Source of the DNA: Candidatus Saccharimonadota bacterium
Lineage (GTDB): Bacteria > Patescibacteriota > Saccharimonadia > Saccharimonadales > Saccharimonadaceae
NCBI GenBank assembly: GCA_017433855.1
Contig: JAFRGM010000004.1
Coordinates: 82,025 to 146,024, forward strand
Length of the DNA stretch: 64,000 nucleotides
Direction of reading: 5' to 3'
Shown: in pieces, positions 390-38,387 of the stretch
Numbering within the stretch: position 1 is the first letter of the stretch
Layout of the letters: each line of letters opens with the position of its first letter
The notes under the pieces: model-generated
Databases searched by the model: none
What the model saw: the letters and a program-made list of their open reading frames with translations, nothing else
What the model was told of the DNA's origin: nothing
Program-made: the position numbers and the translations under genes

Positions 390-458
390 CACTTTTTCTT
401 TTTTCTTAAAATGCATATGTTATAATTGTTATGTAGTTTAAGGAGCGTATTTCACAAA

Positions 459-1924
459 ATGAAAACCAAAAAATGTTTTGATGCCAACAAATATCTAAAA
501 ATCCAAAAGCGCAAAATCAAACAACGCATTAATATGTTTGATAAGCTCTATCTCGAATTTGGTGGCAAACTAATTGATGATCAACACGCAGCGCGTACCC
601 TTCCTGGGTTTTCGCCCGACCTTAAAATCCGCCTCCTGCAAGAGTTCAAAGACGAAGCCGAAGTAATTTTGTGTATCAACGCGGAAGCTATCGAAAAATC
701 CAAAATTCGCGCCGACCACATGATTTCGTACGAAACCGAAGTTCTGCGCCTGATTGAGTTCTTGCGTGGTAAGGGCATCTATGTTAGCTCTGTGGTTATT
801 ACGCTTTATGCCGGTCAGAAAAAGGCTAAAGATTTTGCCGAAAAACTCAAAGATTACAAAGTCAAAACTTATTTCCATACTTTTACCAAGGGCTACCCTA
901 CTGATGTGGATACCATCGTGAGCGACGAAGGTTATGGTGCCAATCCCTACATCGAAACCACCAAAAAGCTCGTGGTGGTTTCGGCGCCAGGTCCTTGTTC
1001 TGGCAAACTTGCCACTGCACTATCGCAGCTATATCACGAATATAAGCGGGGTGTGGATGCTGGCTATGCCAAATTTGAGACGTTCCCGGTCTGGTCTTTG
1101 CCACTTAAGCATCCAGTCAATATTGCCTACGAAGCTGCTACGGCTGATCTTGGCGACAAAAATCTCATCGACCATTTTCATCTTGAAAAATACGGCATCA
1201 GTGCCGTCAATTACAATCGTGATCTTGAAACTTTCCCAGTTCTCAAAGAAATCTTGCGCCGCATCACTGGTAGAGATGTTTATTATTCGCCTACCGACAT
1301 GGGTGTCAATGTCATCGGCGAATGTATCACCGACGACAAGGCTATCCAAAAAGCCGCCAAAGACGAAATTGTGCGTCGCTACTATCGCGCCCTCGTAGAT
1401 CTCAAAAAGGGTGCTTGTACTACCGAAGTTCCAGAACGCATTAAGTTGCTCATGAATGAGCTCGGTGTTTCGGAAGACGACCGCACCGTAGTGATTCATG
1501 CCGAAGCCAAACGTGAAGCTGCGAGTAGGCCAGCTGCCGCTATTCAGGTTGGTCGCAAAATTGTCAGCGGCAAAGAGACCGATACACTTTCGCCCGTTTC
1601 CGCTACAATTCTTAATGCCATGAAACAAATGAACAAGATTCCAGACGAAGTAGATTTAATTTCGCCAGTCATTTTGGAGCAATTTTGGAAATCAAAAACA
1701 AGACCAGTAACTTCAAAGAAAGGCACTTAAAGCTCGGCGAAGTTTTGATTGCTTTATCAATTTGTTCTACCACCAACCCAATTGTCCAAAAAATTATCAA
1801 TAACCTTGATAAACTCGCCGGCGCCGAACTTCATGCTACCCACATGATAGCGGACGAAGAAATGGTGGTGCTAGCCAACCTTGGCATCAACGCTACCTGT
1901 GGCACTGAGCTTAATATGGACTAA
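459..1924 (+). CDS. DUF1846 family protein with a -1 frameshift near its 3' end
   Basis: The start is the ATG at 459 (MKTKKCFDANKYL), with AAGGAG at 440-445; an upstream in-frame TTG at 426 lies in the promoter. The N-terminal part (LYLEFGGKLIDDQHAARTLP) is typical of the uncharacterised DUF1846 family of about 490-500 residues. The starting frame stops early at 1730. The missing C-terminus (EVLIALSICSTTNP, then LGINATC) is read in the -1 frame from 1685 to 1924. The switch falls at the four T's at 1683-1686, where slipping back one base (TTT then TTG) restores about 488 residues. The cause may be a sequence error, recent inactivation or slippage. The 3' end overlaps the convergent neighbour by 4 bp. 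Confidence 0.8.
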
Positions 1925-2307: not shown

Positions 2308-2327
2308 AACCTTATTTTACAACATAT

Positions 2328-3101
2328 TTAAGCGAAACTAAATAATTCTTCTGCATTATGCGTGGTGGTATGTTGGACGGTTGCATAAGGAACATCAAGT
2401 GTCCTGCTGAGCCACTCGGCTATATCTTTAATATGTGACGGTTCATTGGTGGTGCCACGATATCCGTCCGGAGCCAAAAACGGCGCATCTGTTTCTAGCA
2501 AGATTCTTTCTAGCGGCGGTAATGGTAAAGTTGTATAGGTGGATAATCCGTTTACTCCTACATAAAAAACAGTTTGTTCCAGTAAACGCTTCAAAGTTTT
2601 TTTGCTGTCCGTAAAAGAATGTAGTACCCCGCGAATATTTGGAAAATTTGCCACTACGCCAAAAAAATCGTCAAACGCATTGCGCACATGAAAAGATACT
2701 GGTAAGTTATTTGCGGTAGCAATCTGTAGCATTTCCTCGAGCAACTTAATCTGCGCCGTACGGTTATAGCCTTCGGTGTGATAGTCTAGCCCTACTTCAC
2801 CAATCGCCACCAGACGCTGCAACTTCTCTCGCGCCAAACTCTTAACCGCCGCAGCCACCGCGTCGGCATCTGCCGTTGCCCACTTCTCCCATTCTTCTGG
2901 GTGTACACCGTAAGTCCAATATACTTGCGAGTGCGCTTTGGCAAAGTCGCGCGCTGCTAAGGAATCGTCTGGGTCTGTGCCGATGCACACTATGCGTCGC
3001 ACATCATTGGCGCGAGCGTTTAGGAGCATCGCTTCGGCCTGTTCTGGCGTAAAAAACTCAGCATCATGCAAATGACAATGTGAGTCAATCAGATAACTCA
3101 T
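2328..3101 (-). CDS. tatD: TatD family metal-dependent DNase
   Basis: A protein of 257 residues with the TatD amidohydrolase-fold metal sites in order: DSHCHLHD at the N-terminus, AIGEVGLDYH near residue 107, FHVRNAFDD, the LHSFTDS histidine, and LLETDAPFLAP near the end. TatD enzymes are 3'-5' exonucleases or DNases in nucleic acid repair and turnover. The ATG overlaps the typA stop in ATGA, which implies translational coupling in a typA-tatD operon. Confidence 0.9.
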   Translation of the reverse strand: MSYLIDSHCHLHDAEFFTPEQAEAMLLNARANDVRRIVCIGTDPDDSLAARDFAKAHSQVYWTYGVHPEEWEKWATADADAVAAAVKSLAREKLQRLVAIGEVGLDYHTEGYNRTAQIKLLEEMLQIATANNLPVSFHVRNAFDDFFGVVANFPNIRGVLHSFTDSKKTLKRLLEQTVFYVGVNGLSTYTTLPLPPLERILLETDAPFLAPDGYRGTTNEPSHIKDIAEWLSRTLDVPYATVQHTTTHNAEELFSFA

Positions 3102-37046: not shown

Positions 37047-38387
37047 TTAGACATATTGCCAAACTATGCCGTCAGCCGTGTCTTTCACCGCCACCCCCTC
37101 ATCAAGCAGTTGGTCGCGTAGCTTATCAGATTTCGCGTAGTCCTTGGCCTTGCGCGCCGCTGCACGTTCCGACATTAGCGCCTGGATATTTGCCGAAAGA
37201 TTAGGGGTGTCGGCTATTAATCTTAGCCCAAATAACTCGTCTACTCTTTTCCAATCGTCAAACGAAAGTTCAGCGTTATCAATTAGCGCAAAAGCCTTGG
37301 CGGAGTTCAGGTTGTCATTAACTGCCTCTAGCACCTCATCAAATATATCATCGCCCACTATCTCCTTTTGGTAGCAAAGCGCAATGCGGCTGCGCCAATT
37401 TGCTCTGCGGTTGTGCGCCGACCATAAACCGTCAAAAGTAAAATTACGCGCACCCTGATAGTGTCCAGACAGTAGCCACATCTTGTAATCCATCGGCGAA
37501 AAACCACGCGTTTCTAAATCTTCAAGCGTATAAGTATTGCCGATTGATTTTGAGATTTTAAGTCCATCCACCGTAATAAAATCGCAGTGGAGCCAGTACC
37601 GTGCTAATTTATGTTGATAGGCGGCATAGGTCTCAGCAATTTCGTTGGTGTGATGCACCGGCACATGGTCAATCCCGCCAGTGTGAATATCTATTGGCTC
37701 CCCCAGCTCCTTGTGAATAATTGCCGCACATTCCAGATGCCAGCCAGGATAACCTGGGCGACCTAGATAATCCCAACGCATCGCATGTTTTTCGCCGGGT
37801 TTAATGAATTTCCATACTGCAAAATCTGATGCATTACGCTTTTCGGTAGAAAACTCTACCCTCGCGCCAGCTTTTAGCTCGTCGAGCTTTAATTTTGCGA
37901 AATCAGCGTACTCAGGAAACTTAGAGGTATCAAAATACACTCAATCTTCAGTCTCGTAGTGATAACAGTTTTTAGTCATCAAATCTACAGCCTCTATATC
38001 CTCGGCAATATAATTTGTTGCGCGAGCCACCACATCGGCTGGCAGAAGTTCAAGTTTTCGATAATTCTCCAGATAAATATTACTGTAATAATCAGCAACT
38101 TCCCAAACGCTTTTACCTTCACGCGCGGCACCCTTTTCTAGTTTATCTTCGCCTTCGTCGCCATCCGACACCAAATGCCCTACATCCGTCAAGTTCAAAA
38201 CGCGCTTCACTTTGTAGCCATCGGCTTTCAGTACGCGTACCAACAAATCCCAAAATGTATAAGCGGCATAGTTGCCAATGTGCGGCGTATTATAAACCGT
38301 AGGCCCGCAAGTGTAGATTTTTACGACATCCCCCAGTGGCTTAAAAACTTCAACCTTATGCGTTGCGGTGTTATAAAGTTTTAGCAT
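37047..38387 (-). CDS. cysS: Cysteinyl-tRNA synthetase interrupted by one in-frame TGA
   Basis: The frame is open from ATG 38387 to TAA 37047 except for a TGA at 37941-37943. Upstream are the zinc Cys and ATP motif (TCGPTVYNTPHIGN). Downstream are zinc ligands (HLECAA, HHTNEIAE) and KISKS. The TGA falls in ED*VYFDTSKFPEY, where relatives usually have Gly. The total is 446 codons, full family length, with no other damage. A GTG directly follows the TGA (TGAGTG), so restarting is possible. The alternatives are a sequence error, a fresh mutation, readthrough or recoding. It overlaps the upstream hydrolase by 17 bp. Confidence 0.88.

Follow-up and report, generated by a model that had tools for sequence, protein, structure and literature searches.

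The cysteinyl-tRNA synthetase (CysRS) gene cysS of the Saccharibacteria draft genome studied here is interrupted once by an in-frame TGA, which is probably a base error of the draft assembly in an otherwise ordinary single-copy gene. We take the TGA most likely to be an error in the sequence or else a fresh mutation, not a novel use of the genetic code. The genome consists of 596,208 bases in 11 contigs with an estimated completeness of 85.76%, and those of its relatives that carry a name are assigned to Candidatus Saccharibacteria, with ruminant guts as the source of many. The window is the whole stretch of 64,000 nucleotides that was analysed, at positions 82025-146024 of contig C2, and the cysS reading frame occupies 38387-37047 of its minus strand. 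As an earlier note on this DNA had claimed, the TGA (37943-37941) is seen on this strand within the CysRS frame, and it is followed directly and in frame by a GTG (37940-37938). The open reading frames on its two sides (38387-37941, 148 aa and 37940-37047, 297 aa) are two halves of one CysRS according to NCBIfam and Pfam models. If the TGA is read through, the product has 446 aa and aligns end to end, at 77% identity, with the CysRS of G061, the nearest sequenced relative and our reference, which agrees with the claim that both halves are intact and together of full length. The read-through CysRS scores 259 bits with PF01406, and over its full length 334.8 with TIGR00435, slightly less than the cut-off of 340. 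The catalytic motifs of class I CysRS are present as HIGN (residues 36-39) and KISKS (residues 277-281), and the zinc ligands are present by motif position, C27 in the first half and C220, H245 and E249 in the second. We take the ligand set to be the Cys, Cys, His, Glu of E. coli CysRS with C27 as the counterpart of its first ligand. The earlier note had placed HIGH in the first half, and the zinc ligands together with KMSKS in the second; this stands for the HIGH-type and KMSKS-type motifs but not for all of the zinc ligands. As the zinc site is split across the halves, neither half has the full site. In its full-length match, its two motifs, its zinc-ligand positions and its C-terminal domain the read-through product resembles the CysRS family (TIGR00435/PF01406), from which it differs by the single in-frame TGA at a near-invariant Gly. 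A search for a second cysS, which the note had proposed as a check, found none in the genome (85.8% complete); the weaker matches are intact frames that score below the family cut-off.

For the cysS alignment 140 loci were fetched, with one genome per species for the relatives, and these gave 114 distinct aligned sequences including the present one (113 others). The column of the TGA holds Gly in 112 of the 113 relatives and Ala in the remaining one. The statement that relatives commonly have Gly at this site was thus correct as to the residue but understated how nearly invariant it is. The Gly codons themselves vary freely at this position (30 GGA, 29 GGC, 27 GGT and 26 GGG). A single base change leads from TGA to GGA but to no other Gly codon; among the Gly codons of eight genes of the window, GGA is the least used (22 of 262). 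Most parsimoniously, one wrong base in the assembly would have turned a GGA into the TGA, and the living cell, with a sense codon at Gly149, would then make a normal one-chain CysRS. A cysS match was obtained in 166 of 174 genomes of the same genus and in all 60 genomes of another comparison, and among the matches listed the stop occurs in both cases in the present genome only. To judge the state of the gene we looked at the 204 columns that are conserved at 90% or more, where the present CysRS shows 6 departures as against a mean of 5.1 (SD 4.95) among 89 relatives; at least 6 departures occur in 23 of these. Also the ratio of identity between the N-terminal and the C-terminal half is 1.020, compared to 1.005 +/- 0.032 in the relatives. 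Since neither the conserved columns nor the two halves depart from the normal, cysS has not undergone a long decay, and a long-standing pseudogene was rejected. Among the six departures are two rare replacements, G141C and T143H, that lie at most 8 residues before the stop (window 37959-37967); this cluster would fit either a local run of errors or the relaxation of a new tail.

Lone in-frame stops in essential genes of metagenome-assembled genomes (MAGs) should first be weighed against the rate of one-base breaks in the same assembly. We compared 350.6 kb of the present assembly with the open reading frames from about 501 kb of G061 at an identity threshold of at least 45%, which gave a match for 193 of 463 frames and 61,385 compared residues. 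Nine of the 193 genes were flagged, and five of these, cysS included, were judged to be real breaks (Table 1). Apart from the TGA of cysS, these are a TAG in ssb and one-base-deletion frameshifts in a DUF1846 gene, in a putative NUDIX gene and in an uncharacterised gene. In ssb the intact C-terminus is aligned after the stop, and where the TAG stands 28 of 31 relatives have Lys and the other 3 have Arg. No second ssb was found in the genome, nor was the stop seen in other genomes of the genus among the matches listed (60 genomes, 55 with a match). In the DUF1846 gene, frame +3 covers residues 2-420 of the relative and frame +2 covers residues 408-487 of its 487. By frame arithmetic all three frameshifts amount to one missing base or, less simply, to two added ones. 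In the reverse survey, in which the present frames were compared with G061, 3 of 190 were flagged, of which none or one is a real break. The doubtful case at C2:62385 is a short Ser/Pro-rich frame that is probably antisense and was scored as 0 or 1, while the other two flags were dropped as N-terminal start differences. Set against the reverse survey, the surplus of breaks in the present assembly is not significant (Fisher p = 0.061 with 0/190, or 0.215 with 1/190) and is only suggestive.

Table 1. Location of the cysS parts and of the other single-base breaks. Plain coordinates refer to the window; those with a contig name (C) refer to that contig.
Feature	Position	Strand	Remarks
cysS N-terminal part	37944..38387	-	148 aa; HIGN, C27; PF01406 positions 9-125; NCBIfam cysteine--tRNA ligase models
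In-frame TGA replacing near-invariant Gly codon (Gly149)	37941..37943	-	Gly in 112/113 distinct relatives
cysS C-terminal part	37047..37940	-	297 aa, GTG first; C220, H245, E249, KISKS, CysS_C domain; PF01406 129-296, PF23493
DUF1846 gene, one-base-deletion frameshift near 1680-1685	426..1924	+	PF08903/PF20921; NCBIfam PRK13663
Uncharacterised gene, frameshift	C2 ~71393-71396 (L214)		comparison with G061
Putative NUDIX gene, frameshift	C1 ~73938-73962 (in L260)		NUDIX name from reading of the sequence
ssb, TAG at codon 94 (C8:34657-34659)	C8:34378-34827 (L217:14378-14827)

That two single-copy core genes carry two different stops while their conservation is otherwise normal points to base errors of the assembly, and less to very recent mutations. 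The TGA, its place, the single copy, the conserved halves and the further breaks are shown by the data, whereas the step from there to an error of sequencing or consensus, as opposed to a real mutation, is one that we infer. Growth is not expected of a cell that lacks CysRS and full-length SSB. As only 185 of the 4005 single substitutions in cysS (about 4.6%) create a stop, the two visible stops would, if errors are random, be accompanied by tens of substitutions that go unseen among the 61,385 residues compared. The scattered single-base breaks, with three frameshifts that each fit one missing base, resemble the uncorrected base errors of MAGs as treated in PMC8103633, where insertions and deletions are the commonest error type in nanopore-only MAGs. 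The present case differs from that description in that the changes in cysS and ssb are substitutions, and the present assembly may not be a nanopore one. Against a base error also stand the non-significant excess given above and the G141C/T143H cluster near the stop, for which a single wrong base does not account. Moreover, deletions outnumber substitutions among the breaks, and yet it is cysS and ssb that carry substitutions. A genuine nonsense mutation of very recent date, or a variant of a minor strain that was taken into the consensus, would leave cysS newly broken or barely alive through leaky reading of UGA. Such an event would agree with the normal conservation of both CysRS halves and with the widespread occurrence of in-frame stops in bacterial genes, which are mostly short-lived on the time scale of SNPs according to PMC7918605. 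We consider it unlikely, as cysS and ssb were each found once and are normally essential for growth, so that a double loss in one cell is improbable, and the frameshifts in conserved genes elsewhere would demand a third to fifth real event.

Were the TGA real, the CysRS would be one that is naturally made of two chains, or else UGA would be recoded in a phylum with the standard code. One might suppose that UGA is translated as Gly in the manner of genetic code 25, that it encodes selenocysteine, or that readthrough takes place specifically at the cysS codon. The TGA does occupy the position of a Gly codon, and PMC10746230 and PMC8406219 agree with the earlier note that UGA is Gly in the sister phyla Gracilibacteria and Absconditabacteria. 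For Saccharibacteria, as opposed to these, PMC10746230 has genes predicted with code 11. The present genome also departs from code 25 in that UGA serves as a normal stop: where the C-terminus of a gene matches that of the relative G061 (165 genes), 19 end with TGA, 47 with TAG and 99 with TAA, which bears out the statement that TGA ends other genes here. The gene prfB for RF2 is intact (435.6 bits, open frame of 362 aa). A UCA-anticodon tRNA, which the note had advised looking for, was absent among 42 tRNA genes, as was a CUA anticodon (genes found with Rfam, anticodons from ARAGORN, genome 85.8% complete). For tRNA-Sec the best RF01852 match reached 42.8 bits as against the gathering score of 47, and lies at a site that ARAGORN calls tRNA-Ser(cga). 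Code 25 would place many in-frame UGA codons at Gly sites across the genome, but in the 193 genes compared no in-frame TGA other than that of cysS was judged real; among the five breaks the one further in-frame stop is the TAG of ssb. The two single-base stops together with the three one-base deletions are fitted better by base errors than by biological recoding. On the basis of the tRNAs, RF2, the terminal stops and tRNA-Sec, recoding to Gly or selenocysteine as well as suppression were rejected, and we hold them to be extremely improbable. The view of the earlier note that a one-base error or a fresh mutation is the simplest explanation is hence favoured by the absence of a UCA anticodon among the tRNA genes found, by UGA working as a stop with RF2 intact, and by the further single-base breaks including the ssb TAG.

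The note had also remarked that a TGA-GTG junction would allow restart into a two-part enzyme. Termination at the TGA and restart at the GTG would yield chains of 148 and 297 aa that together form an active CysRS, and the contiguous, in-frame layout with both halves intact is indeed as described. A precedent is found in Aquifex aeolicus, in which LeuRS is naturally made of two chains (alpha-beta), and artificially split class I synthetases exist. The present break resembles the Aquifex case in that a class I enzyme is interrupted after its HIGH motif and before its KMSKS motif, but differs from it in being known from the sequence of a single genome with no conservation of the split. Neither the 113 distinct aligned relatives nor the same-genus matches listed show a split gene. 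Beyond its layout the restart finds no support. Of the 113 relatives, 65 have Val at codon 150 and 21 have GTG itself, so that the GTG was inherited as a Val codon and the TGA-GTG junction, although it looks designed, need not be. Upstream of the GTG, pairing with the anti-SD is predicted to be weak, at about -3.3 kcal/mol compared to -8.9 for the ATG of cysS; other start sites of the window give values between +1.4 and -8.3 kcal/mol, a rough comparison as some of these starts are approximate and two are off a start codon. A two-part enzyme would also leave the ssb TAG and the frameshifts unaccounted for. We therefore find a restart into an active two-part enzyme highly unlikely. The fuller form of this reading, in which the TGA is real and fixed, the CysRS of the lineage is made in two chains by UGA stop and GTG restart, and G141C and T143H belong to a relaxed new C-terminal tail, appears extremely unlikely. 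Among the matches listed, a literature search returned nothing on point for a split or recoded cysS, and for split class I synthetases one review that is off point by its abstract.

Four flags of the forward survey were dropped. The stop at C2:31115 lies within an N-terminal alignment gap beside a tRNA-Leu gene, that at C10:14572 lies within a gapped C-terminal region, and the flag at C1:32975 looks in our judgement like a low-complexity antisense reading. A possible break in the gene at window 2310-3092, which is presumably TatD-like, was likewise rejected, as the flag is the natural end of the gene. The flag at C8:97162 was set aside because it falls in a conserved stretch upstream of a gene start. 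This stretch (C8:97135-97315, L220:17135-17315) is about 90% identical to positions 15532-15716 of contig C6 of G061, while the flank is about 68% identical. It contains an inverted repeat and lies directly upstream of a gene that, from a reading of its sequence, appears to have NUDIX-like and RNase H-like parts. Rfam gave no match for the stretch at the gathering score and one chance-level match below it. The stretch may be a small RNA or leader that has so far not been described.
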